Virus record (IMG/VR): IMGVR_UViG_3300023276_000008
Span: 20,952-84,951 of that record
Source of the DNA: a virus
Length of the DNA stretch: 64,000 bases
Direction: 5' to 3' (one strand)
A program made the position numbers and the translations under genes. Shown piece by piece: positions 10,841 to 58,708 of this stretch. The notes below the pieces were generated by a model. The model had not been told where the DNA came from and ran no database searches. It saw only the letters and a program-made list of their open reading frames with translations. Within the stretch, counting starts at the first letter, position 1, and the number at the start of each line of letters is the position of its first letter.

Positions 10841-13141
10841 TTATCGGATGATCTCTTCGAAGTTAGCATCAGTTCTTGTTGCCACAAACTCAACGATGAT
10901 GAACTCGGCAGATCTTGTTGGCTTGAGTAACACTGTTGCTCTCAATTCGTTGTTATCAATTACTTCAGGAGTGTTAACTCTTTCGTCGGCAATAATCTGA
11001 TAATCATAAACACCACCGTTTTGCTTTGCATATTCCATGATAGGAATCAAAGTGTTTTCGAATCGTGTTCTTGTGAACTCAGTGTTTGGCTCGAATAGGA
11101 AGTATTTGGAAACCTTCTTAGTTGGTCGCTCAAGTGTTAAGAACAATCTACGAACGTTAACTCTATCAAACGCACTTGGCTTTCTGCTTAGAGTCTTCTG
11201 TCCCATTACCACAACACCATCTGCTCTTGAGAAGAAGATTGGGTTTAGGTTAGACTTATAAAGTTCGTCACGCTGCTTCTGGTTGGGTTTAACAGCAATG
11301 TCTAGTACGTTACGCATAAGACCTCTATTAAAGCCAGCAGGGGCTATCCACGGGAATTCGTTGGCATCTGTTTGTGCATAGATAGATCCTAAATGTGCAG
11401 AAAGTGGTGTCCAAATCTTTTGTCCTGTGAATTCATCATAAATCTTACCCCAGTTTGCATAAGCCGCAGCATATGAAGTGTTCTGGAATTCGAATTGGTG
11501 ACGAGTTGCCCAGTAAATGTCCAATTGGAAATTACGTTGCTTGTTATCAATAATCTTATTATCTCTACCAGTTACATAGATGTGTCTTAGTGGATCTGCA
11601 ATGAACATACAGTCACCACGACCACCAGTATTACTTGGTAGGTTACAGAAATTCTCAAACTTATTAAAGATTGTATTATAGTCTTCAATTAGATCAGAAC
11701 TAACTTCCTTAGAAGTACGAATCTTATCAACTGCGTCCTTTAGAACTGTTCCATATGCGAATTCGTCATAAGTAACATCACCAGTAACACTTGCACTACC
11801 ACTTGAAGCTGCCCAAATTGTACCTAGCCCTGCTTCAACCAATACATCAATGTCATAAACTTCGTCGTTCTTAATTGATTCCAACGCTCTAGTAACTTTA
11901 TCTGGCATAATACCAAGTTTTTTGTCTGTAGTGTTTGATACGTTATAGTTACCTAATGCGTACATATTATCACTGAAACCAACTGCTGCTCCTACTGAGG
12001 AGAGAGCTGAATATGTAACTCCGTCAAGAGCTTCACCTGTTGCTGATACTGAACCATAGTTAGTAAGTAGTTCCTCAGTCATAACACGAATCTTCTTAGC
12101 TGGCACTCCATCAACTGCTGGGTTAAAGTTGTTAGCAATATATTCGTTAACATGAACTTCAATGTTTCTGTTGTCTGAGTCTACATATTCAAGGAATAGA
12201 GGTATTGAAGGTCCGCCATTTGGATTAAGTTCTTGTCTGTTTGGATCGATTGAACCAACAAATGCTGAGTCAAGAGTGTAATCAATCTTGAATGCTTCAT
12301 TAGCATATTGAGATCTCTTCAACTTGAAGACACCAACACTTAGAAGATCATCATCTGTTCTTCCATCAATGTTGTAGTCAGTCACATTATCCATGATTTC
12401 TGAAATACTATTTGAAACTCCACCACTATCAGCGGTGAGGTTAAATTGAAGTGTGCCTTGTGGAACATCAGTATAAACATCTGACCCCGCTTGGGTCAAT
12501 GCTTTAACCTGTGTGATGGACTTGTGATCAACTGAAGGATCAACCAATGTATTGTCAGATACACCAATGTAGAAACCTTCAAACTTCTCATTTACAGTAG
12601 TTTGAGCCTTATCGATGACAACCAATGCTGCTCCTGACAATGCTGATACTGCGCTAAATGATGTACCTGCTGTTGAACCCCACTCAAAACCACCTTCTTT
12701 GATAGCATCATACTCATCTTCTGTGATGGACATGTGTGATGGCTCACCAAGAACAATAGTACCTTCTGCAATCGAGAGGTCTGTTGATGCTGATACTGCA
12801 CCACTTTCAATACTTCTTGCAGGATATGCAAGAATGCTATAGTTTGAGCCGAATCCATCGCCACTATCTTCTCCATAAGGAAGACGATATGTGTAAATCT
12901 GTGCTGGTGAATCAATAAGTTCTAAAATTGAGTGATAGAAATATCTTTCAGCACTGTTTTTTGGAACACCGTATATGCTCTCAAGTTCACCCTTCGACGT
13001 AATTTTAATTACCTCGTCGATTGGTCCTTGGTCTGCATAACCTGTCAAGAATATATTAGTTCCTACGTTCTGAGGAGCTATGAGAGAGAGATCTCTCTCA
13101 CGAATCTCTACCGCTGGACTGTTAAAAGTTCTAGTTGCCAT
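10841..13141 (-). CDS. 18: Tail sheath protein gp18, 766 aa
   Basis: The start ATRTFNSPAVEIRERDLS and the segment ERYFYHSILELIDSPAQIY are standard for T4-type sheath proteins. The C-terminal third holds the conserved sheath core (WIAPAGFNRG, then QKTLSRKPSAFDRVNVRRL, and LERPTKKVSKYFLFEPNTEF), which makes the contractile mesh. It is longer than T4 gp18 (659 aa); the extra length lies in the variable, surface-exposed middle (about residues 140-330). It has its own late heptamer and terminator. Confidence 0.95.
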   Translation of the reverse strand: MATRTFNSPAVEIRERDLSLIAPQNVGTNIFLTGYADQGPIDEVIKITSKGELESIYGVPKNSAERYFYHSILELIDSPAQIYTYRLPYGEDSGDGFGSNYSILAYPARSIESGAVSASTDLSIAEGTIVLGEPSHMSITEDEYDAIKEGGFEWGSTAGTSFSAVSALSGAALVVIDKAQTTVNEKFEGFYIGVSDNTLVDPSVDHKSITQVKALTQAGSDVYTDVPQGTLQFNLTADSGGVSNSISEIMDNVTDYNIDGRTDDDLLSVGVFKLKRSQYANEAFKIDYTLDSAFVGSIDPNRQELNPNGGPSIPLFLEYVDSDNRNIEVHVNEYIANNFNPAVDGVPAKKIRVMTEELLTNYGSVSATGEALDGVTYSALSSVGAAVGFSDNMYALGNYNVSNTTDKKLGIMPDKVTRALESIKNDEVYDIDVLVEAGLGTIWAASSGSASVTGDVTYDEFAYGTVLKDAVDKIRTSKEVSSDLIEDYNTIFNKFENFCNLPSNTGGRGDCMFIADPLRHIYVTGRDNKIIDNKQRNFQLDIYWATRHQFEFQNTSYAAAYANWGKIYDEFTGQKIWTPLSAHLGSIYAQTDANEFPWIAPAGFNRGLMRNVLDIAVKPNQKQRDELYKSNLNPIFFSRADGVVVMGQKTLSRKPSAFDRVNVRRLFLTLERPTKKVSKYFLFEPNTEFTRTRFENTLIPIMEYAKQNGGVYDYQIIADERVNTPEVIDNNELRATVLLKPTRSAEFIIVEFVATRTDANFEEIIR

Positions 13142-13776: not shown

Positions 13777-14514
13777 CTATTTATCAGTTAAACATATATT
13801 ACCTTCAATATCAAAGATGTTATATGAATCCCCATTTATTTCAGCATTGTGGGCAATTTGTAGATTTGTGTACGACTCGACATCGGGAATAATTTTTTTA
13901 ACTGTCGGATCAGTATATACCTCTTGTCCAGATGATCTATATTCATCTGTTGCAGAGCAATGATAATTAACTCCAGTCCACCCATATACAAAACTTGGTA
14001 TATCTGAGTCTCTCAATAGTATTTTATTGGGATCAATCTTATTTTGAAACTCTTGATCTTCACCATTATTGCAGTCTAGAGCATATCCACCAACATCAAA
14101 CCATAAACTCCTTCGAAATGACCAATTTCCCAAAGCTTGTTGATTGGGGCATAATTTCTCACAATACAAGGAGTGCATATTTTTATCTCTAATGAACTCA
14201 ACATGTTTACTTTTTTTATATATTTCCATGTGACTCTTAATATAATTTGGCAGCATGATACAATCGTCATCTAATGTGAAAATTATGTCATGATATCCAA
14301 ACTGAACCCCTAGATTTCTCTTATGGGGTAACAGAATTTTTTCGCTAATATTCATTATGCGAACATTAGGTACATCACACTCAATAGATAAATTCTTCTG
14401 ATCGTTTATTATCAATAATTCTACTTCATCATATGTCTGTTCTATGAATGATTGAACCACTCTACCCAAATATTCTACTCTATCGTATGTAGGAACTACA
14501 ATCAATGCTCGCAT
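13777..14514 (-). CDS. GT-A glycosyltransferase (family 2 type), 245 aa
   Basis: Begins RALIVVPTYDRVEYLGRVVQS, the nucleotide-sugar-binding start of family-2 transferases, and has an acidic metal-binding motif FTLDDDCIMLP near residue 82. The later ALDCNNGEDQEF text fits the acceptor-side acidic motif. The start is the ATG at 14514: the late heptamer overlaps the in-frame ATG at 14520, which therefore could not be transcribed. Placed between tail and fibre genes, it may modify a virion protein, but DNA or host glycan is also possible. Confidence 0.8.
   Translation of the reverse strand: MRALIVVPTYDRVEYLGRVVQSFIEQTYDEVELLIINDQKNLSIECDVPNVRIMNISEKILLPHKRNLGVQFGYHDIIFTLDDDCIMLPNYIKSHMEIYKKSKHVEFIRDKNMHSLYCEKLCPNQQALGNWSFRRSLWFDVGGYALDCNNGEDQEFQNKIDPNKILLRDSDIPSFVYGWTGVNYHCSATDEYRSSGQEVYTDPTVKKIIPDVESYTNLQIAHNAEINGDSYNIFDIEGNICLTDK
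13778..13784 (-). promoter_or_regulatory. Late promoter, ATAAATA
   Basis: ATAAATA on the minus strand, 5 nt before the ATG at 13772. Confidence 0.65.
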
Positions 14515-14519
14515 GACCA

Positions 14520-14526
14520 TATTTAG
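14520..14526 (-). promoter_or_regulatory. Late promoter, CTAAATA, for the glycosyltransferase
   Basis: CTAAATA on the minus strand, 5 nt before the ATG at 14514; it decides that start. Confidence 0.65.
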
Positions 14527-29958: not shown

Positions 29959-30897
29959 CTATTCCATTAAACTTTTCTCCATATTGAGTATACAGGCATA
30001 GCAGTTGATCTCCTTATTGAGAACAACCTCATGTTTCTCCATATGTTGAGCAACTATCATCATTAGAGACTTTTTATAGTGTTCTTGTATAGCATTGTCG
30101 CTATATATCACCTCAAACATATCATCCATTAGCTTTCTATAGTCATTGGAGAACATATCAGTAGAATCCTTGATAATACCTCTAAGATGTTCCATTTTGC
30201 CAGTGATCACACTATTTATAATTTGTTTAGCTAGAGATGAATCATCCACAGCAGCTTTATTGAGAAGTATGTTACCTGTAGCACACACTTTCTGCAATTC
30301 GTTGATTACTTTACGAAAATCGGGCATATGTCTCTTAATCAACGCTCCCAACGATTTGAGATCGTCTGCGGTATAACTAATACCTTCCTCCTTAAGTATT
30401 TTATCACATCTTCTAAGACAATCGTTCAAAGGGTTCTTAATGTTGACTGCTACACATCTAGAAGCAATAGCATCTTGAATTTTGTGTTGAAAATTCCCTG
30501 TGATGATAAATCTGATATTTGATTGAGCATTCTCCATCAAATTACGAAGACATTTCTGTCCATCAACAGTAGTTCCATCGAATTCATCTAATATAGCCAC
30601 TTTAATACCACCATTGGAACTTCGAGTCTTGGCAAACTTCATTACCTTGTCTCGAATGGTATCAATTCCGTTTTCGTCAGAGGCATTGATATATAGATGG
30701 TCACATTTCATGATATCATCCACAATTATCCTCGCTAACGAGGTTTTTCCTATACCTGCTGTACCCACCAACATTAAATGGGGTATACACACTTCTTCCG
30801 AGAAGGTTTCGAGATATGTCCTTGATGCATCATCAAGGATTAGATCGTCTAAACATTTCGGTCTATATTTCTCAGTCCATAATTCACTATATTTCAT
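29959..30897 (-). CDS. 44: Clamp loader ATPase subunit gp44, 312 aa
   Basis: AAA+ ATPase with N-terminal LWTEKYRPKCLDDLI box, Walker A GTAGIGKT (45-52), Walker B DEFD (104-107), sensor-1 TGN (133-135) and the clamp-loader SRC motif (146-148). It loads the gp45 clamp. T4 gp44 is 319 aa. Its ATG overlaps the rmlA-like stop (ATGA-type), so it is the last gene of a sugar-nucleotide operon and not next to gp45 as in T4. The partner gp62 is not found in the window. Confidence 0.95.
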   Translation of the reverse strand: MKYSELWTEKYRPKCLDDLILDDASRTYLETFSEEVCIPHLMLVGTAGIGKTSLARIIVDDIMKCDHLYINASDENGIDTIRDKVMKFAKTRSSNGGIKVAILDEFDGTTVDGQKCLRNLMENAQSNIRFIITGNFQHKIQDAIASRCVAVNIKNPLNDCLRRCDKILKEEGISYTADDLKSLGALIKRHMPDFRKVINELQKVCATGNILLNKAAVDDSSLAKQIINSVITGKMEHLRGIIKDSTDMFSNDYRKLMDDMFEVIYSDNAIQEHYKKSLMMIVAQHMEKHEVVLNKEINCYACILNMEKSLME

Positions 30898-31613
30898 ATT
30901 TGGATATTTGTTCTTGTTTTGTACGCTGCAACTAGATTTGCGCAGTCTAAAAGACTATCAAACGTACCAACGTCGAACCACATCCTATCATCCACGTTCA
31001 CAATGTCAACCTTTTCTTTCGTAGACATGGCGTTAATCACATCGACAATCTCAACCTCACCTCGTTCAGATGGGAGGACGTTTTTTGCGATTTCAACACA
31101 GCTATTTGTGAATGAATATAGACCAACTACAGCCTGTGTAGATATAAATTCTTGAGGCTTCTCAACTACACAATCTAATGTCCCATCGTCGCTAAATTTA
31201 GCAACCCCATATCGATTTGGATCATTGACGGAGTATGTATATATAGTATTAGCCTGTAGATCGAATTCATTCTGCAAAAAGATGTTATCGCCCAATATTA
31301 GAGTCACGTCATCATCCCCAATGAATGTTTCTCCAATGATAAATGCTTCAGCTAGACCCTTTGGATCTTGTTGTAGCGCATATTCGAGTTTAACACCCCA
31401 TTTATCCCCATTACCAAGATATTCTTTAAGCATTGGCAACCCATCTAAGGATGAGATGATTAGAATCTCAGTAATTCCTGATTTAATGAGTGTTTGTAGA
31501 GGATAATAGATGATTGGTCTATCGTATAGAGGTAATAGTTGTTTAACTATACCGAATTCTGTTAATGGGTAAAGCCTAGTTGCTTTACCTCCTGCTAAAA
31601 TGATTCCTTTCAT
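30894..31613 (-). CDS. rmlA: Sugar-1-phosphate nucleotidylyltransferase, RmlA-like, 239 aa
   Basis: Starts KGIILAGGKATRLYPLTEFG, the signature of nucleotide transfer onto hexose-1-phosphate, followed by LLPLYDRPIIYYPLQTLI and the metal-binding LILGDNIFL. It would make dTDP-glucose or a similar NDP-sugar. It is shorter than the common 290-aa enzyme, lacking the C-terminal allosteric extension; the usual GSGTRL is GKATRL. It follows the rmlD-like gene by one base and overlaps gp44 by four. Confidence 0.85.
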   Translation of the reverse strand: MKGIILAGGKATRLYPLTEFGIVKQLLPLYDRPIIYYPLQTLIKSGITEILIISSLDGLPMLKEYLGNGDKWGVKLEYALQQDPKGLAEAFIIGETFIGDDDVTLILGDNIFLQNEFDLQANTIYTYSVNDPNRYGVAKFSDDGTLDCVVEKPQEFISTQAVVGLYSFTNSCVEIAKNVLPSERGEVEIVDVINAMSTKEKVDIVNVDDRMWFDVGTFDSLLDCANLVAAYKTRTNIQI

Positions 31614-31614
31614 A

Positions 31615-32439
31615 TTATTTGCTCAGTAGGTCTAAAAGTGCGTCCTTTTCTGATCGTAAAGGATATACTGTGAGTGCTTTAATGTTGTTCAGTTGACAAT
31701 TACTACGAGGTGCAACTATATCAAGGTCTGATAAAGGTACGAATTTCCAGTTTGGGTTATTATACCCACACTCCTGCATGATATCAACTACTGACGATGT
31801 ATATAAAGGGTCGCCATTGACTACATTATAAATATCTTGTCCGTTTGGAATCATTTCTTTATCAATTAAGGTCTTTATGAATAAAGAAACATCTTCTGTA
31901 CTACTCTTGGAGTTTTTATAATCAATTAGGTTGTCATATTTGTGTATTTTGGTCAAATATGATCTCTCATCCCCCACTTTACTAAATGGCATCCGTAACC
32001 GCAATATAAAAAGCTTATTGCGTCTAGTTACAAGCTCAAACATGTGTTTTGACTTGGAATATGTTGATGATTGGTCATATATACCGAAATCTGGTTTATC
32101 CTCTTCGGTATATACTCGTCCATATCCACTATAAATGCATCCAGAACTCAAATGAATTAGTGTCACACCAACCTCATCACATACATCTGCTACCATTTTG
32201 GGTGATACCACATTCAGATACATACACTCATCCACTTTATGTTCAGCTTCATCTACATTTGGTCTACCTGTAAACCCGCTACAGTTTATTACATGGGTGT
32301 ATTGACCCACATATAATAAATTTTGGAGCACTTTGGGGCAATGGTAATTATATGCCGAACTGCTAATTATTCTAGCTTCTGGTATATATTGCTTGATTTC
32401 ATTAGCCATATACCCATTTCCAAGTATAATTACTTTCAT
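31615..32439 (-). CDS. NAD(P)-dependent sugar reductase/epimerase, RmlD-like, 274 aa
   Basis: Rossmann start MKVIILGNGYMANEI, then HVINCSGFTGRPNVDEAE (RmlD-like NxAAxTxVDxAE region), IHLSSGCIYSGYG and the catalytic YSKSK (YxxxK). These are features of dTDP-4-dehydrorhamnose reductases and related NDP-sugar enzymes. With the RmlA-like gene it covers two steps of an NDP-6-deoxysugar route; the intermediate dehydratase/epimerase may be host-made or the gene at 1-65. It overlaps the small upstream gene (TAATG). Confidence 0.8.
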   Translation of the reverse strand: MKVIILGNGYMANEIKQYIPEARIISSSAYNYHCPKVLQNLLYVGQYTHVINCSGFTGRPNVDEAEHKVDECMYLNVVSPKMVADVCDEVGVTLIHLSSGCIYSGYGRVYTEEDKPDFGIYDQSSTYSKSKHMFELVTRRNKLFILRLRMPFSKVGDERSYLTKIHKYDNLIDYKNSKSSTEDVSLFIKTLIDKEMIPNGQDIYNVVNGDPLYTSSVVDIMQECGYNNPNWKFVPLSDLDIVAPRSNCQLNNIKALTVYPLRSEKDALLDLLSK

Positions 32440-38506: not shown

Positions 38507-39172
38507 ATGACACCGAATCCACCAGAAGATAAATCAAATATAGGGTCTGAATCATTAACTGACCAGTTCATTGCAGACACCTATTATGGGGAACTGCATA
38601 CGAAGAACGTTCCTATAACAGGAGAGAGATTTCCGCATGTTTTTGATGGCTATGGAAACCAATCAAGTCTACAAATGGGCGTAAGTTCTATAAAGGTGAA
38701 TGGTTTAGAGTTTCCTCAAGCATTTATCGACATGTTATATCCAGTAGGTGCAATATATCTGTCTTCAGACGACATAAACCCAAGCAACCATATACCATAC
38801 ACCTCATGGGTGAGAGTTTCCCAAGGTAGATTTTTGGCTGGAGTTGGTAGTGCTATAGATGCAGACTCCAAATCACAGTCAATTGGATCTGGAGATGATA
38901 ATGTGGGAGTTTATAATCAGACGATGACTGTGGATGAGATGCCATCACATAGACATGACCCAGACACTGAGAAATCAGACTTCAAATACTTCGTAACATG
39001 GTATAAAGAGGGTCGTGTAGCCAGACAAGAGGCTGGTGGGGATGATAATAGCTCATATAGTTTCCCCGATAAACCTTTTTATACAGGTGGGATGACTCAA
39101 GAAGGTGGGGGTGAAGCACACAACAACCTCCCGCCAACATTTGGCATATATGTGTGGAAAAGAATAAATTAA
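38507..39172 (+). CDS. Tail-collar domain protein (gp12/receptor-binding type), 221 aa
   Basis: LYPVGAIYLSSDDINPSNHI, then VRVSQGRFLAGVGSAIDADS, the metal-binding-type MPSHRHDPD and C-terminal HNNLPPTFGIYVWKRIN are the collar-domain signature seen in T4 gp12 and microcystin-dependent proteins. It would form trimeric fibre tips. The short upstream segment may anchor it to neighbouring fibre proteins. It begins a five-gene tail-fibre cluster. Confidence 0.85.
   Translation: MTPNPPEDKSNIGSESLTDQFIADTYYGELHTKNVPITGERFPHVFDGYGNQSSLQMGVSSIKVNGLEFPQAFIDMLYPVGAIYLSSDDINPSNHIPYTSWVRVSQGRFLAGVGSAIDADSKSQSIGSGDDNVGVYNQTMTVDEMPSHRHDPDTEKSDFKYFVTWYKEGRVARQEAGGDDNSSYSFPDKPFYTGGMTQEGGGEAHNNLPPTFGIYVWKRIN
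39164..39170 (+). promoter_or_regulatory. Degenerate late promoter, ATAAATT
   Basis: ATAAATT 5 nt before the ATG at 39176, inside the end of the preceding gene. Confidence 0.35.
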
Positions 39173-39175
39173 GAC

Positions 39176-40291
39176 ATGGCAGATATTAAAATAGCTAAAA
39201 TTAAGATAAGGAGAGGTCTAGATGCGGATAGAAAAACTGTAATTTTCGATCAAGGGGAACCTGTGTATTCGCAGGACACTGATAGATTATATATTGGAGA
39301 TGGTGTTAGTGCTGGAGGATTACATATTAGCAACAAAACTCACCCACCCATACTAAATGTGCAATCCTTAACAGCATTAAACGCAGAGAGGGGAGATATT
39401 TGTTATGCTGATGGGATCATTTATCAATTAACTGCTGCCGACTCACAAATATTTACAAATTGGTCCAACATATCCCCTAGGTTGGATGATAATACTGTCA
39501 TATATAATGGATCATCCACTATTAGTATTGCTCCTAGTGGTGTCGGATTAGCTCAGATAGATCCACTTTCATTTGATAGAGGAATTGAGCATATTGGAAC
39601 TAGTATTAGGTTAAAACATTCCACATCATTCAATTCCTCTTCAGCAAATACTCTCATGTTATCCGATGGTGGTGTTGATGAGATGCATTTAACCTCAACC
39701 ATAACTAATGGTGTTATTGTTGGTGGTGCTGGTGATAAAATAGAATTAAATTATGATTCTACATACTTTTTAGAGAACACTGCTGGAGAATTGACACTTG
39801 TGGATACTCCATCCTTCGGATATCCTGATATGGACCCAAATTTATATGGTGTTGGTTTCTATTTCAATAATGTAGCCGAAACAATCAACCATTACATCAA
39901 CGATGTCAAAGACACTGGATCTATTGTTAAGGATGGTAATTATAATATCGATTTAGAAACATTATATTTATCTTCAAACAATTCTGCTCCATTCTCTGAC
40001 ATATCTGTTGATGTGTATGGGCGTGTCTCTGGGTTAAGCACCTCAATTAATGACACTTTGAGTGCGTTAAGTGCCGCAGACTCCTCAACACACTTTAATG
40101 GAACTCCAAACCAGACTGTGGAAGGATATCCCATAACTGATCTCACTCAGGTAACAGGATTATCCTCAAATGGGGTCACAAGTGTCTCTGTGGAACTATC
40201 TAGTGCTGGATTTATCACATTTGATGGAGAAGTTGATGCCAAAAGCGGTAAAACTATCCCAAGATTCGCAATTCCTATATACACATTCTAA
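39176..40291 (+). CDS. Tail-fibre protein with N-terminal RRG/GDG repeat, 371 aa
   Basis: KIRRGLDADRKTVIFDQGEP followed by RLYIGDGVSAGGLHISNK is the hyaluronidase/tropism-determinant-type N-terminal fibre module. The remainder is a beta-rich shaft. It is a paralogue of the next gene: the GDGVSAGG core is identical in both. The shaft sequences have diverged, as expected for host-range parts. Confidence 0.8.
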   Translation: MADIKIAKIKIRRGLDADRKTVIFDQGEPVYSQDTDRLYIGDGVSAGGLHISNKTHPPILNVQSLTALNAERGDICYADGIIYQLTAADSQIFTNWSNISPRLDDNTVIYNGSSTISIAPSGVGLAQIDPLSFDRGIEHIGTSIRLKHSTSFNSSSANTLMLSDGGVDEMHLTSTITNGVIVGGAGDKIELNYDSTYFLENTAGELTLVDTPSFGYPDMDPNLYGVGFYFNNVAETINHYINDVKDTGSIVKDGNYNIDLETLYLSSNNSAPFSDISVDVYGRVSGLSTSINDTLSALSAADSSTHFNGTPNQTVEGYPITDLTQVTGLSSNGVTSVSVELSSAGFITFDGEVDAKSGKTIPRFAIPIYTF

Positions 40292-40294
40292 ATA
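40288..40294 (+). promoter_or_regulatory. Late promoter, CTAAATA
   Basis: CTAAATA 12 nt before the ATG at 40307; a closer CTAAAC is also present. Confidence 0.45.
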
Positions 40295-40306
40295 TAACTA
40301 CTAAAC

Positions 40307-41839
40307 ATGAATTCAATTAACATATTAGAAGATACTATTCTCAAATTAATAGTTCGACAAGGGGCTGATGCAGATCGTTTAGCCACTGTATTAGATAGTG
40401 GTGAGCTTGGCTACACATCAGACACCAAAAGACTCTTTGTGGGTGATGGTGTGAGTGCTGGTGGGGTTCTTATAGGAAATAAGTTCCTAGGTAGTGCTAT
40501 GGATGTAACTACACTATCTCCTGCTGAAGTAGGTGACTGCGTATTTGACGAAAATACTAACAACCTTTTGATATTATCTACAAATACTGGATCTGTATTA
40601 ACGGATTGGAGTCCTGTAGGTGGATTATATACTCCTACAGATGGGAGTATTGTCGTATCAGCTAGTAATGGTGTATCTGTGGGTAGTTTATCTGCTGGAC
40701 ATGTATCTGAAGACCTTCTAGGGAGTAATTTTACATTAGATGTTGGTGAAAGGATCACATTGACAGACACAATCTCAGTTACTACTATCCAAGGAACAAA
40801 TTCGGACCCTCTTATAATTGAAGGTAAAGTAAATCTTGGTGGTCTAACATATACATATCCCACAACTAGAAGTAATGACGGATATCTACAGACAGATGGT
40901 GTTGGAAACCTTGTTTGGGACACTTTAAAGGCTGAAGCTACATATTTTGTGGCTAATAGTGCTGGTTCTTTGCCGATTGGTACGATTACCGCCACCGTGT
41001 CTAATACTATAGGCTCTAAATGGCTACTATGTGATGGGTCATCATATGATACTAGTGTATATGCTGATCTTTTTGCGGAAATTGGATACACTTATGGTGG
41101 ATCTGGTTCTAATTTCAATGTACCAGACTACGCAAATAGTATATTATATGGCGATGATGGAGGGTCAACAGTTTATGACCTATTGGCAGACCTTGGACCG
41201 AGTGCGTTTACAGTTGTCCCGACTAATTACTTCATTAAGAGTGAAGCTGATGATGTATTCGAGAGTACGTGGACATTTGAAGCTCCTCTTTCGGCTACTA
41301 TAGGCGGTGTTGATGTTACTGGAACTACAATCAACCCACTTTCAGGAGATTTAGTAGTTTCTATGCCAGATTCTACATCAATTAAAGCTAACGTATCCTT
41401 CAATCAAGAAGGCACGGTAATTAAAGGATATAATGTAACATCGGTTGCGTTGACAAGCAGGTCTGTCGCAAATACTGAGATATTTCTCCCATATGGATCA
41501 GTATTCGAAGAATATGATGTCGTTACTCCCTCTATATATTATGATGGTAGTGGTTATACTGGAGCATACATACTTAATCTCACAGAACCTTTGTCCAATC
41601 CAGATACCGCAGTTATAGATATTGCAGCATATAATTATTATCCCGAATCTATGGATGTTCCTACGACTAACACATTCCAAAAGTTTGATTATGTAGTCTT
41701 GGATGACACTACTATATTGGTAACAATATCAAATACTCATCGTATAGTTGGTGAAAGTGTGAATAGGGTGTTTTTGGATTCTGGTTATGACTATAATTCA
41801 CTTATTAGTGGTACAAGATTCAATGTGACCATTAAATAG
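40307..41839 (+). CDS. Tail-fibre protein: RRG/GDG module plus collar domain, 510 aa
   Basis: N-terminal LIVRQGADADRLATVLDSGE and LFVGDGVSAGGVLIGNKFLG repeat the module of the preceding protein. The middle part TITATVSNTIGSKWLLCDGS followed by YADLFAEIGYTYGGSGSNFN and VPDYANSILYG (about residues 220-280) is a collar domain. A beta-rich C-terminal tip follows. This two-module organisation is typical of receptor-binding fibres. Confidence 0.85.
   Translation: MNSINILEDTILKLIVRQGADADRLATVLDSGELGYTSDTKRLFVGDGVSAGGVLIGNKFLGSAMDVTTLSPAEVGDCVFDENTNNLLILSTNTGSVLTDWSPVGGLYTPTDGSIVVSASNGVSVGSLSAGHVSEDLLGSNFTLDVGERITLTDTISVTTIQGTNSDPLIIEGKVNLGGLTYTYPTTRSNDGYLQTDGVGNLVWDTLKAEATYFVANSAGSLPIGTITATVSNTIGSKWLLCDGSSYDTSVYADLFAEIGYTYGGSGSNFNVPDYANSILYGDDGGSTVYDLLADLGPSAFTVVPTNYFIKSEADDVFESTWTFEAPLSATIGGVDVTGTTINPLSGDLVVSMPDSTSIKANVSFNQEGTVIKGYNVTSVALTSRSVANTEIFLPYGSVFEEYDVVTPSIYYDGSGYTGAYILNLTEPLSNPDTAVIDIAAYNYYPESMDVPTTNTFQKFDYVVLDDTTILVTISNTHRIVGESVNRVFLDSGYDYNSLISGTRFNVTIK
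41832..41838 (+). promoter_or_regulatory. Late promoter, TTAAATA
   Basis: TTAAATA 6 nt before the ATG at 41845; overlaps the preceding stop. Confidence 0.55.
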
Positions 41840-41844
41840 ATGTA

Positions 41845-42636
41845 ATGAAGGCTACGGGATTTATAGATAGTACAAAATTATACACATCACCACACGATAT
41901 CGTGTGGTCGTTTGATTATAATCTTGTTGGTGTGGGAGATGATTATGCTATTGGCACATATCTAGTACCCGCTGTATCTATTCCGATATATACCCTACAT
42001 GAGTTGGAAAATCTATCAATAACATCTATTGATGGTGATGTGTTTCTCCTTGATGATAATACATCTGAGATGTTAACGGACGAGAGTGGTAATCTGTTAA
42101 TACAGGAAGAAGAAACCAATACTCCTCTAATTTCCATAATTTTTGACTCCACTGGGTATAACGCACTATCTAGCGTGGATAAGGATGGTGTTGGGGTGAA
42201 TTCTATTAAATCTGATAGTTTAATTGTTAGGGGTCCAAGTAACAATCTACTATATAATGAGTCATTGAGTGCGATACATGATGATTTTATAATACCAACC
42301 CCAGAAGATGTGTTCAAATCGTTGAGATTTAAATATTCTAACGTGGGTAAACTATTAACTATATCTCAGGGATATGGTTCTGAATATGTTACCATGATTG
42401 AATTGGTATTAGACACCAACGAGGTTCCATTAGGTCATTGTTATCCAGCATTTGCATACACTTCCCCAGTTTCTTCTACAGACACAGGTGATCAAGGAAT
42501 GTCCATATCTAAATTACAATCAGTTGGTGATGTGAATGCATATACGACACACGTTAACGACTTTGTTCCCCTATCATCAGATATAGATGCATTATTCACC
42601 ACTATTTCTGGTATATCTGCTGATATATTAGTTTAA
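41845..42636 (+). CDS. Fibre-region surface protein, 263 aa
   Basis: Beta-rich protein with small strand repeats (DGDVFLLDDNTSEMLTDESG; NLLIQEEE). The segment NVGKLLTISQGYGSEYVTMI is a possible sandwich strand pair. No domain is recognised; placement between a fibre gene and the mucin-like gene suggests an adhesin or fibre tip. Confidence 0.5.
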   Translation: MKATGFIDSTKLYTSPHDIVWSFDYNLVGVGDDYAIGTYLVPAVSIPIYTLHELENLSITSIDGDVFLLDDNTSEMLTDESGNLLIQEEETNTPLISIIFDSTGYNALSSVDKDGVGVNSIKSDSLIVRGPSNNLLYNESLSAIHDDFIIPTPEDVFKSLRFKYSNVGKLLTISQGYGSEYVTMIELVLDTNEVPLGHCYPAFAYTSPVSSTDTGDQGMSISKLQSVGDVNAYTTHVNDFVPLSSDIDALFTTISGISADILV

Positions 42637-42663: not shown

Positions 42664-42670
42664 CTAAATA
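42664..42670 (+). promoter_or_regulatory. Late promoter, CTAAATA, for the mucin-like protein
   Basis: CTAAATA 5 nt before the ATG at 42676. Confidence 0.65.
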
Positions 42671-42675
42671 TATTT

Positions 42676-43578
42676 ATGGCTGTATGTACTGATTGTTATC
42701 CCGATGAATTGATATGTGGTGGTTGGTGGGACGGATATTATGGAGGTGATGTCAACATACAAAATGTTCGATTTGATGTTCCTATATTTCCTACTGGAGC
42801 GACTTCCTATTATGGGGAAGAAATATACGGTAGTATGGGGGATTCATTCCTTGATGGTGTTCGAGTTAAATGTAATGCATATTTGTACGACAATTTCGGG
42901 ACAAATGCATGGTTTATTACAGTAACCGTTGAATCGCTTGATGAATTTGGGTCTATTATATATACAGAAGTAAAAGATCATAGTGCAGATCGAGTTATTG
43001 ATTTTGGACCACCTGTGGTAACTGACGCTTGTTACCCTGATATGAATACTTTTGATTATATGGTAGTCAGTGGACCAGATTCTATATATGATGTTGGAAT
43101 TTATTGTGGGGGCGCGACTACATCATCCACCTCATCATTTACATCCTCATTTACATCCTCATTTACGTCATCGTCTACTATACCCCCAACTACTACACCC
43201 ACATCATCTACTACACCCACGTCATTTACATCATCGTCTACATCATCGTCTACATCATCGTCTACAACTACTATTGATACTACGACTGGGACTGGGACTG
43301 GTACGCAGACTACGTTGCCACCATGCGCTCCCTGTGTACACCCCACAGTTACCACGTTCATACCCCCATTCCCTACATACCCTCCAGTAACAAGTAATCC
43401 TCCAGATAGACCAGAGAATCCTATTATAATTGATGTGCCTCTAAACAATTCATTCCCTATTATCTTAACAACTCTGACTACAATTACTACTACGGAGGCT
43501 CCAACGACAACGCCACTACCTATTAATAAATTTATACCTAAATGTGATGATAAGTCTTGCAATCACTTGGGATTCTAA
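42676..43578 (+). CDS. Ser/Thr-rich mucin-like surface protein, 300 aa
   Basis: A Cys-containing N-terminal domain (1-146; CTDCYPDELICGGWW) is followed by 65 residues that are almost all Ser and Thr with Phe and Pro (148-213), then a Pro/Cys-rich linker (PPCAPCVHP) and a second Thr-rich run near residue 275. A short CDDKSCNHLGF end closes it. The block looks like a mucin-type O-glycosylation region. The next gene is a GalNAc-transferase-like enzyme, which suggests enzyme and substrate. Confidence 0.6.
   Translation: MAVCTDCYPDELICGGWWDGYYGGDVNIQNVRFDVPIFPTGATSYYGEEIYGSMGDSFLDGVRVKCNAYLYDNFGTNAWFITVTVESLDEFGSIIYTEVKDHSADRVIDFGPPVVTDACYPDMNTFDYMVVSGPDSIYDVGIYCGGATTSSTSSFTSSFTSSFTSSSTIPPTTTPTSSTTPTSFTSSSTSSSTSSSTTTIDTTTGTGTGTQTTLPPCAPCVHPTVTTFIPPFPTYPPVTSNPPDRPENPIIIDVPLNNSFPIILTTLTTITTTEAPTTTPLPINKFIPKCDDKSCNHLGF
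43131..43265 (+). repeat. Tandem DNA repeats coding the Ser/Thr block
   Basis: Two short-period repeats: about three copies of a 12-bp TTTACATCCTCA-type unit from 43139 and three or more of ATCATCGTCTAC near 43228-43264. Such arrays readily gain or lose units, which would change the length of the Ser/Thr block. Confidence 0.8.
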
Positions 43579-43585
43579 GTAAATC
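43579..43585 (+). promoter_or_regulatory. Degenerate late promoter, GTAAATC
   Basis: GTAAATC 5 nt before the ATG at 43591. Confidence 0.35.
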
Positions 43586-43590
43586 CATAT

Positions 43591-44415
43591 ATGAGAAAGC
43601 TTACAATCGGCATGGCAACCCATGATGACTTTGATGGAGTATATTTCACTATACAGTCTATACGTTTATTCCATCCCGAAATATTGGATGATGTTGAATG
43701 GGTAATTATTGACAACAATCCAAAGTCCAGCCATAGTAAATGTATTAGAGACTTGATGAATTGGATTAAAGAGCCAGTTCAGTATCTACCATATACAAAT
43801 AAACAGTCTACTACAGTGCGCAATAAGATATTTGACCTCGCTGAGACTCCTTATGTCATATCAGTGGATTGTCATGTGATGTTTGCCGCTGGATCACTAA
43901 AAAAACTCATTGATTACTATGATTTGGGTCTGGATGCTGGTAATTTATTACAAGGACCCCTACTATATGATGATGGAGAGACTATTAGTACTCATTTTGA
44001 TCATACATGGAGTGGTAATATGTGGGGTACATGGCAAACTGACGATAGGGGTAAAGACCCAAATGCTCAACCTTTCGAAATACCTTCACAGGGGTGCGGA
44101 ATCTTTAGTTCTAGGAAGGATTCTTGGTTGAGATTCAATGACAACTTTGATGGGTTTGGGGGGGAGGAAGGATACATCCACGAAAAATATAGACAACATG
44201 GTAAGAAGGCAATATGTCTTCCTTATCTTCGCTGGATGCATAGATTCTTTCGACCAGAGAAGGTATCTTATCCAAATGATCTCAAACAGAGGTTCGCTAA
44301 CTATGTAATTGGGTTTGAAGAACTTGGTTTAGATAAAACCGAACTCATTGACCATTTTTCAAAAAGTATTGGGCGAGCCTCTGTAGATAGAATTCTAAAA
44401 AATACTCTTACCTGA
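43591..44415 (+). CDS. Glycosyltransferase, polypeptide GalNAc-transferase-like, 274 aa
   Basis: GT-A start KLTIGMATHDDFDGVYFTIQ, then the metal motif SVDCHVMF (DxH, Asp93-His95) rather than the usual DxD, and GFGGEEGYIHEKYRQHGKKA (from 188) with His217 after it. DxH and a GGE-type acceptor motif are characters of the GT27 polypeptide GalNAc-transferases, which start mucin-type O-glycans. Sugar donor and acceptor remain unproven. It follows the mucin-like gene by 12 bases and overlaps the convergent gene by 21. Confidence 0.75.
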   Translation: MRKLTIGMATHDDFDGVYFTIQSIRLFHPEILDDVEWVIIDNNPKSSHSKCIRDLMNWIKEPVQYLPYTNKQSTTVRNKIFDLAETPYVISVDCHVMFAAGSLKKLIDYYDLGLDAGNLLQGPLLYDDGETISTHFDHTWSGNMWGTWQTDDRGKDPNAQPFEIPSQGCGIFSSRKDSWLRFNDNFDGFGGEEGYIHEKYRQHGKKAICLPYLRWMHRFFRPEKVSYPNDLKQRFANYVIGFEELGLDKTELIDHFSKSIGRASVDRILKNTLT

Positions 44416-46034: not shown

Positions 46035-46856
46035 TTAGTTGAACACCTTATTCACTTTAACACCTTTATTATCAAATATAATACATAGGAATTTGTGTTT
46101 CTTCCTACAAGCCTTGGCTTTCGATATATTCATATCTAAATTGTTCTCATAAGTGTATTCACATTTTACCTCAATCACCAGATCATCTTTAGCTATATAT
46201 AAATCTGGATGATATCTCCTACGATCTCCATCCATATAATAACTTATACTGCTTCCACTATATGTTTCAATATCATTCACATCATATCCCATCTCTTCAA
46301 CAAGATATTCTATTGCTTGTGGTTCATATCCTTGTAGGTGAGTGAAATCTCTACCCCCATAAGAGTGTTCTTTGTATTTAAACCTATTAGTATTACTCTT
46401 CTTAAAGATATCAGGATCTTGCATTGGATTATCTACACCATACTTCTCCACAATAGTCTTAACACGCTTCTCCTTAGCATTAACAGCACTATCTTTCATA
46501 GTTCTCAGCTCAATACCCCACTTCAATAGCTTCTTTCGTATAGTAACTGCGCTAGTATCGAACATATTACCCAATTCAGTGAGCGTAGACCCCTCTTCAT
46601 AGAGTTTGATTACAGTTTCCTTATCCTCTTCACTCCCAAGGGTCTTTGATCCTCTTACATAGCTCTTATTGTTCACAACTTCCTTTGCAGATCGCTTTGG
46701 AATCTTGTTATTTATGAATATTGAGTCTGTTGCAGCTCTACCAGCTTCATATTGTTTGGCTATATCTGTAATAGATACACCCTTTTGATATAAAGCTACG
46801 ATTTCTTCTTCATTTCCCTTTAAATTAGGGTTTTTGCTTCTCCATGTGATGCTCAT
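46035..46856 (-). CDS. Putative homing endonuclease with HTH repeats and PD-(D/E)XK-like domain, 273 aa
   Basis: Two N-terminal helix-turn-helix units (EEIVALYQKGVSITDIAKQY; KLYEEGSTLTELGNMFDTSA), a linker with KYGVDNPMQDPDIFKKSN, and a nuclease-like core YHPDLYIAKDDLVIEVKCEY (Asp, then ExK) near residues 213-235. These are characters of phage-borne homing endonucleases with restriction-type folds. It sits between head-protein and primase-operon genes and has its own late heptamer. Confidence 0.75.
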   Translation of the reverse strand: MSITWRSKNPNLKGNEEEIVALYQKGVSITDIAKQYEAGRAATDSIFINNKIPKRSAKEVVNNKSYVRGSKTLGSEEDKETVIKLYEEGSTLTELGNMFDTSAVTIRKKLLKWGIELRTMKDSAVNAKEKRVKTIVEKYGVDNPMQDPDIFKKSNTNRFKYKEHSYGGRDFTHLQGYEPQAIEYLVEEMGYDVNDIETYSGSSISYYMDGDRRRYHPDLYIAKDDLVIEVKCEYTYENNLDMNISKAKACRKKHKFLCIIFDNKGVKVNKVFN

Positions 46857-58033: not shown

Positions 58034-58065
58034 TAAAAGGGGGTTATATAACCCCCTTTTTTTTT
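58034..58065. terminator. Bidirectional terminator after the 942-aa gene
   Basis: Hairpin AAAAGGGGGTTATATAACCCCC followed by T9. It also touches the stop of the convergent glycosyltransferase. Confidence 0.9.
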
Positions 58066-58708
58066 ATCCATGTTTGTTTTTGAAATATGTTTGTCCTTTG
58101 AGGAACTCTTCATCGTCTAGTGATTTAAGTCCTCCAGATGCATGAATCAGTGGAATATTAATAGCCAATGGCTTAAATCCCTCCCTCCACGCTCTTAAAG
58201 AGAAGTCTATGTCGTAGAAATGAAACTTTGATGGGATATCTTCATCATATCGAAGTCCTGACTGCATTAACTTCTTAGATAGTACTACAAATACTCCGTC
58301 TAGATTAATAACCTGTGCTGGTGTCGGACCAAAGAATGTTGATATGTGATTATCAACTGTTCCATGCTCTACATTCCCCCTCAAGTTACCTTCACCGCCC
58401 ATAATGTGCCATAAACAAGGTTCTGTCACATGGCAGTTGGTTGCACCTGCCACTCCCAACATATCATTAGTCTTTAGATACATTTCGATGATAGGTCTTG
58501 GATCAGACTTCAAGGTCACATCGTCATGACATAGAATTAGATAGTCCTCATCTTGATATCTATCAATTAATTGATTGTATATTTCTGATATAGATTCTGT
58601 GTTATCGATAACTCCATGTAGATCTATATCTATATCTAGATGTGTTAGAGACTTACATAGGTCAGTCTTTCTGATATCATTTTGTGGGGTAACTGTACAG
58701 ATTTTCAT
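58064..58708 (-). CDS. Glycosyltransferase, GT-A family-2 type, 214 aa
   Basis: Starts MKICTVTPQNDIRKTDLCKS. LILCHDDVTL (about residues 67-76) is the DxD-like metal motif, IMGGEGNLRGNVEHG a possible acceptor loop and FHFYDIDFSLRAWREGFKP the catalytic acidic motif. It overlaps the previous glycosyltransferase gene by 32 bases, so the two are probably co-translated and act in one pathway. Substrate unknown. Confidence 0.8.
   Translation of the reverse strand: MKICTVTPQNDIRKTDLCKSLTHLDIDIDLHGVIDNTESISEIYNQLIDRYQDEDYLILCHDDVTLKSDPRPIIEMYLKTNDMLGVAGATNCHVTEPCLWHIMGGEGNLRGNVEHGTVDNHISTFFGPTPAQVINLDGVFVVLSKKLMQSGLRYDEDIPSKFHFYDIDFSLRAWREGFKPLAINIPLIHASGGLKSLDDEEFLKGQTYFKNKHG

Follow-up and report, generated by a model that had tools for sequence, protein, structure and literature searches.

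Gene content and setting of the pair

The window analysed here is a stretch of 64,000 nucleotides from an 84,951-bp virus record (IMGVR_UViG_3300023276_000008). Its genes give family matches to a tail sheath, a baseplate wedge, a terminase, a gp44-like clamp loader, a gp32-like protein and a DnaB-like helicase, which together mark this uncultured virus as a T4-like, contractile-tailed phage. A plus-strand cluster of fibre genes ends with the gene of a mucin-like protein of 300 residues and, as its last gene, that of a glycosyltransferase of 274 residues (Table 1). Both reading frames are open and the spacing between them is exactly 12 bp (42676-43578 and 43591-44415), as given in the preliminary description of this DNA. 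Relatives display a similar kind of gene order beside the enzyme. Elsewhere in the window, the minus strand encodes a protein with HTH_7 and DUF7487 matches (46035-46856), probably a homing-type endonuclease, and two more glycosyltransferase-like proteins (58064-58708, PF13712; 13777-14520, PF00535).

Table 1. Positions, in window coordinates, of the gene pair, its parts and associated features.
Feature	Position	Strand	Basis
RmlA-like and RmlD-like pair, possible sugar-nucleotide supply	30894..32439 (RmlA-like 30894-31613; RmlD-like 31615-32439)	-	family matches
Fibre/baseplate genes upstream of the pair: gp10-C-like, Mtd_N, Mtd_N + tail collar, fibre-like	38507..42636	+	domain matches
TAAATA box, 5 bp ahead of the substrate start codon, T4-late-promoter-like	42665..42670	+	TAAATH scan
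Mucin-like Ser/Thr/Pro-rich protein, 300 aa, proposed glycosylation substrate	42676..43578	+	ORF; counterpart in 21/21 clade phages
N-terminal non-repetitive domain, codons 1-147, probably carrier part	42676..43116	+	no detected relatives
Ser/Thr tract, codons 148-213, 51/66 Ser/Thr	43117..43314	+	composition, tandem repeats
Conserved C-terminal tail CDDKSCNHLGF, codons 290-300, C-x(n)-C[NKL]xLx[FY]	43543..43575	+	shared by 21/21 clade neighbours
TAAATC box, 5 bp ahead of the enzyme start codon	43580..43585	+	TAAATH scan
GT-A glycosyltransferase, 274 aa, structurally GT27-like	43591..44415	+	Pfam PF00535 6.6e-6; model pLDDT 96; PDB matches
D93-C94-H95, DxH metal motif (GalNAc-T2 D224/H226)	43867..43875	+	D93, H95 invariant in 77 sequences; alignment
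GFGGEEG, residues 188-194; E192 ~ GalNAc-T2 E334 (donor contact), F189 ~ W331	44152..44172	+	family alignment, GT27 alignment
WMHRFFR, residues 215-221; H217 ~ GalNAc-T2 H359, third Mn ligand	44233..44253	+	family alignment, GT27 alignment

The 300-residue protein has no Pfam or PHROG match, and searches with its N-terminal domain returned neither a family nor a homologue. Ser and Thr make up 77% of residues 148-213 (binomial p about 8e-31 at 14% Ser/Thr). This tract had been described as 65 nearly uninterrupted Ser/Thr residues encoded by expandable short repeats. Its density is evident, but the count is 51 of 66, with interruptions by F, P, I, D, G and Q; tandem repeats of 12, 18 and 24 bp are present, but they make up only part of the tract. 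The maximal Ser/Thr fraction per 40 residues is 0.82 in this protein, compared to 0.42 in the runner-up among 65 non-overlapping ORFs of the window, and the first 21.5 kb of the same virus record holds no Ser/Thr-rich ORF. The mucin-like proteins write Thr with three to four codons and Ser with up to six. This mixed usage points to selection on the protein and to a composition that is more than a simple microsatellite. As in mucin-like (PTS) domains, the region is Ser/Thr/Pro-rich and tandemly repeated, with its composition conserved and its sequence not. Since the protein carries no known domain, its location in the virion is read from gene position; lying beside gp10-C-like, Mtd_N and tail-collar genes, the product is likely a tail protein, as it had been named.

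Each gene of the pair is preceded by a TAAATH box, which resembles the T4 late promoter TATAAATA. Such a box lies no more than 18 bp from the start codon in 20 of the 42 window genes, compared to 2.7% at random (p 2e-20). Examples are the starts of 10841-13141 (minus strand), 41845, 42676 and 43591, and the forms seen are TAAATA, TAAATC and TAAATT. In most relatives the enzyme gene has TAATAATTA or TGATAATTA at the box position, overlapping the substrate stop codon. The boxes ahead of substrate and enzyme fit late expression with the structural genes. Shine-Dalgarno-like motifs are rare (4 of 42 window genes), and if the TAAATH box does act as a late promoter, leaderless or almost leaderless transcripts would be common among the late mRNAs.

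Predicted fold and active site of the enzyme

The only Pfam match of the enzyme is to PF00535 (6.6e-6), and searches of PHROG, PDB sequences and isolate phages gave no match even at E 10. The enzyme is absent from all 50,697 isolate phage records searched, which places it out of sight of culture-based work. Relatives number at least 154 in IMG/VR, of which 80 were kept, and 17 in GTDB genomes. On genome contigs (L083-L099; L-numbers denote loci of enzyme relatives), the bacterial relatives often form part of longer proteins, with TPR in L083 and a GT25-like part in L088, and in L088 and L098 the next gene encodes a Thr-rich protein. The family alignment comprised 77 relatives with 36-68% identity to the window enzyme; D93, H95, G188, G190, E192, E193, W215 and H217 are among its invariant residues.

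An AlphaFold2 model built from this alignment (pLDDT 96, pTM 0.92) has the shape of a compact GT-A domain with a helical C-terminal end; an earlier model from four sequences was poor (pLDDT 49) and was discarded. A structure search against GT27 had been set beforehand as a test of the enzyme's affinity, with an unrelated glycosyltransferase group as the contrary outcome. In the Foldseek search against the PDB, all of the 50 best matches were polypeptide GalNAc-transferases (GT27), at E 2e-13 to 9e-11 and query-normalised TM of 0.63-0.75. The matched structures are T1, T2, T4, T7, T10, T12, fly PGANT9 and Toxoplasma T3. The nearest viral structure, A0A6J7WYC1 (BFVD; TM 0.90/0.85, 28% identity), is a GT-A protein of an uncultured Caudovirales phage and probably belongs to the same family as the window enzyme. 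The label "Glycosyltransferase, GlcNAc", as for GT60-like proteins, recurs among the viral structural neighbours; GT60 is also a protein-acting family.

The active site of GalNAc-T2 has D224, H226 and H359 as Mn ligands, and E334 contacts GalNAc (PMC4388629 Table 2). When the family was aligned with four PDB GT27 sequences in MAFFT, D93, H95, H217 and E192 coincided with D224, H226, H359 and E334, and F189 with W331. DCH at residues 93-95 and GFGGEEG at 188-194, both taken earlier as marks of GalNAc-transferases, are accordingly in register with GalNAc-T2. Similarity at the profile level was marginal. The hhalign comparison of the family with the four GT27 sequences gave E 7e-4 and a probability of 27%, that with the single GalNAc-T2 sequence stayed below significance, and neither hmmsearch of the PDB with the family profile nor phmmer returned a GT27 chain. 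In view of this marginal similarity, we describe the enzyme as GT27-like by fold and active site and not as a proven GT27 member.

Animal polypeptide GalNAc-transferases start mucin sugar chains. The phage pair is like that system in its GT-A catalytic domain, whose best structural matches are of the GT27 type, in its metal site (DxH and a third His), in the donor-contact Glu and in having a Ser/Thr/Pro-rich candidate substrate. The differences are of several kinds. The Trp of the WGGEN motif (W331) is replaced by Phe, both here and in about 99% of the enzyme family. The C-terminal ricin-type lectin domain, usual though not universal in GT27, is missing, as the enzyme stops at residue 274 and has no such Pfam match. 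The phage enzyme also lacks a membrane anchor, and its gene adjoins that of the presumed substrate.

Conservation of the pair and other gene contexts

We compared the neighbourhoods of enzyme relatives, with the clade set defined as dereplicated loci that have upstream sequence and an enzyme identity of at least 59%. The upstream gene was scored on the strand of the enzyme; an antisense ORF overlies the substrate of L013. In all 21 distinct clade phages, the gene located 10-12 bp upstream of the enzyme encodes a Ser/Thr/Pro-rich protein with the tail C-x(n)-C[N/K/L]xLx[F/Y], and the pair is thereby known from no fewer than 20 distinct phages of aquatic origin besides the source phage. The N-terminal parts of these proteins differ from phage to phage, while the Ser/Thr content and the tail persist. 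The Ser/Thr part is short in L004, L022 and L024, and six phages (L014, L022, L023, L025, L026 and L028) have two mucin-like proteins in tandem. A content of 60% Ser/Thr in 40 residues was reached by 17 of the 21 upstream genes. Among 740 control ORFs flanking PhoH in other phage contigs, not one attained it; the contrast (p = 3e-31) is indicative only, because the loci are related. PhoH was taken as the control query and the GT2 gene at 13777-14520, which found near-identical copies only, was dropped.

The tail itself appears specific to this class of proteins. We scanned 15 records for its pattern at the DNA level, an approach that detects copies before TAA or TAG stops and not those before TGA, and on long ORFs the pattern occurred only at these partner proteins. 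The tail of L037 is found on a 1490-residue protein, after a right-handed beta-helix (PF13229), which suggests a spike. In the enzyme tree the tagged loci cluster, with 2 state changes compared to 8.7 in shuffles.

Several distant relatives occur in larger cassettes. L031 (1-8911) encodes an Ig-like protein whose tail is a long Ser/Thr stretch (T(n), (SP)n, S(n)), followed by a TylF-like methyltransferase, GT8, the enzyme, and GT4-type and GT9-type proteins. A Ser/Thr-tailed protein is accompanied by further glycosyltransferases in the cassette of L043, and L044 combines a Ser/Thr-tailed fibre, a GT2-FkbM protein and the enzyme fused to an F5/8C domain. The enzyme has large Ser/Thr-rich neighbours in L045 and L078. 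In L034 and L040 it occupies the same gene order next to a fibre-like gene, but a mucin-like gene is absent, and in a sister clade (L046-L073, IMG/VR) it adjoins a PD-(D/E)XK exonuclease or a terminase, with no Ser/Thr-rich neighbour. These last two contexts indicate that the enzyme family may have other acceptors too.

Proposed function, alternatives and significance

The predicted fold, the aligned catalytic ligands and the pairing in 21 of 21 phages support the preliminary description of a mucin-like protein beside a GalNAc-transferase-like enzyme. On the strength of sequence comparison and modelling, it is probable that the phage encodes the O-glycosylation of a mucin-like, likely virion, neighbour protein by a GT27-like enzyme. 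In the mechanism that we infer for the pair, from activity, donor and acceptor to virion location and purpose, enzyme and dedicated substrate would constitute a two-gene O-glycosylation module. Late in infection, in the cytoplasm, the enzyme would bind a metal ion via D93, H95 and H217. Ser/Thr hydroxyls in the mucin-like stretch of its neighbour would receive a sugar, a HexNAc being the likeliest, which the enzyme would take from a nucleotide-sugar donor. In the neighbour, the N-terminal domain would act as a variable carrier and the Ser/Thr region would accept the sugar; the conserved tail at the C-terminus would serve as a docking tag for the enzyme or as an assembly anchor. Once decorated, the protein would become part of the tail-fibre or baseplate region, as a hydrophilic bristle that resists proteases and may serve attachment, shielding or stiffening.

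RmlA- and RmlD-like genes, mentioned earlier as a possible source of donor, are indeed present in the window. They adjoin the clamp-loader gene and score under the NCBIfam cut-offs. Both families recur in many relatives of this phage; they were found in 9 of 15 records and not in the other six searched, two of which exceed 130 kb. The genes belong to a dTDP-sugar type of pathway and are a possible donor supply for the enzyme; UDP-HexNAc from the host is equally likely to fill this role. Chances are about even that the transferred sugar is a HexNAc, and GalNAc specifically is a doubtful guess.

The enzyme could instead glycosylate folded fibre domains or other virion proteins, with the Ser/Thr region as a flexible linker or spacer. 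L034 and L040, in which the enzyme lies beside a fibre-like gene and no mucin-like gene is present, fit such a role, and unmodified Ser/Thr-rich linkers are plausible as spacers. We nonetheless regard this as improbable: the invariable linkage in the clade is to a gene that shares mainly its Ser/Thr content and its C-terminal tail, substrates are duplicated next to one enzyme, and the known members of the GT27-like fold act on Ser/Thr of unstructured peptides. DNA modification is frequent among phage glycosyltransferases (cited in PMC12619734), and the distant relatives that adjoin an exonuclease or terminase would suit a glucosylation-type hypermodification of phage DNA. For the clade enzyme this is very improbable, given its place as the last gene of a fibre cluster, its late-promoter-like box, its conserved partner gene, and best structural matches that are all protein O-GalNAc-transferases.

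Action on a host surface glycan, in serotype conversion or superinfection exclusion, is known for other phage glycosyltransferases, and the window contains the RmlA/RmlD-like and further GT2 genes. It is highly unlikely for an enzyme modelled as a compact GT-A domain with a helical C-terminal end, adjoined by no flippase- or Gtr-like gene and encoded next to a conserved Ser/Thr protein in the late fibre cluster. The two genes might also have stayed linked by hitch-hiking, the late region being conserved and syntenic, with the tract a neutral microsatellite expansion; many of the loci are syntenic relatives and the tract does contain tandem repeats. This explanation is hardly credible in the face of a Ser/Thr content and tail that outlast the turnover of the N-terminal domains, of mixed Thr and Ser codons, and of the recurrence of the combination in non-syntenic contexts (L031, L037, L043, L044 and L045).

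Precedents for parts of the proposed O-glycosylation exist. Phage-encoded glycosyltransferases glycosylate virion proteins of mycobacteriophages Che8, Corndog and Myrna (Freeman et al. 2023, per PMC12363180, PMC12619734), with the glycans described at the C-termini of capsid and tail-tube subunits. Phage glycosyltransferases, in our case with a putative action on a virion protein, are common to both systems, whereas the targets there are capsid and tail tube and here would be a dedicated mucin-like protein. Close kinship with the Che8 virion glycosyltransferases was rejected, as hhalign gave nothing for gp109 and gp110 and only a 61-column local GT-A stretch for gp108. In Streptococcus mutans, the Thr-rich surface protein Cnm is modified by PgfS, a GT-A enzyme encoded immediately downstream (cnm-pgfS; PMC5856776). 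The arrangement of a Ser/Thr-rich protein gene beside that of the modifying glycosyltransferase is similar, but Cnm is a bacterial surface adhesin and PgfS is membrane-bound. Serine-rich repeat adhesins are likewise encoded beside their glycosyltransferase, GtfA/GtfB; they are bacterial surface adhesins that use accessory Sec export (PMC6973325). The phage enzyme has a predicted GT-A fold. The accessible descriptions of both systems (PMC5856776, PMC6973325) contain neither a GT27-like enzyme nor a C-terminal tail of the phage-pair type.

The preliminary description knew of no phage system of this kind, and our search of the open-access literature, incomplete in coverage, also found no description of a phage mucin-like protein with a GT27-like enzyme. 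Virion glycosylation is already known in a few mycobacteriophages, and the combination of mucin-like substrate and GT27-like enzyme is probably new as far as searched. Somewhat better than even, in our judgement, is the prospect of a phage mucin-type O-glycosylation system in many uncultured aquatic phages, in which a GT27-like enzyme acts on a dedicated, rapidly evolving mucin-like virion protein with a pair-specific tail, and which is expandable to multi-enzyme glycan cassettes. Animal GT27 may share ancestry with this prokaryotic and viral family or have converged on it. If true, such a system would offer an enzyme and its substrate, both genetically encoded and both soluble cytoplasmic proteins, as a tool for O-glycosylation in bacteria. 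It would also account for the Ser/Thr-rich "low complexity" proteins that recur as a class in phages, and would inform ideas on how mucin-type glycosylation arose.
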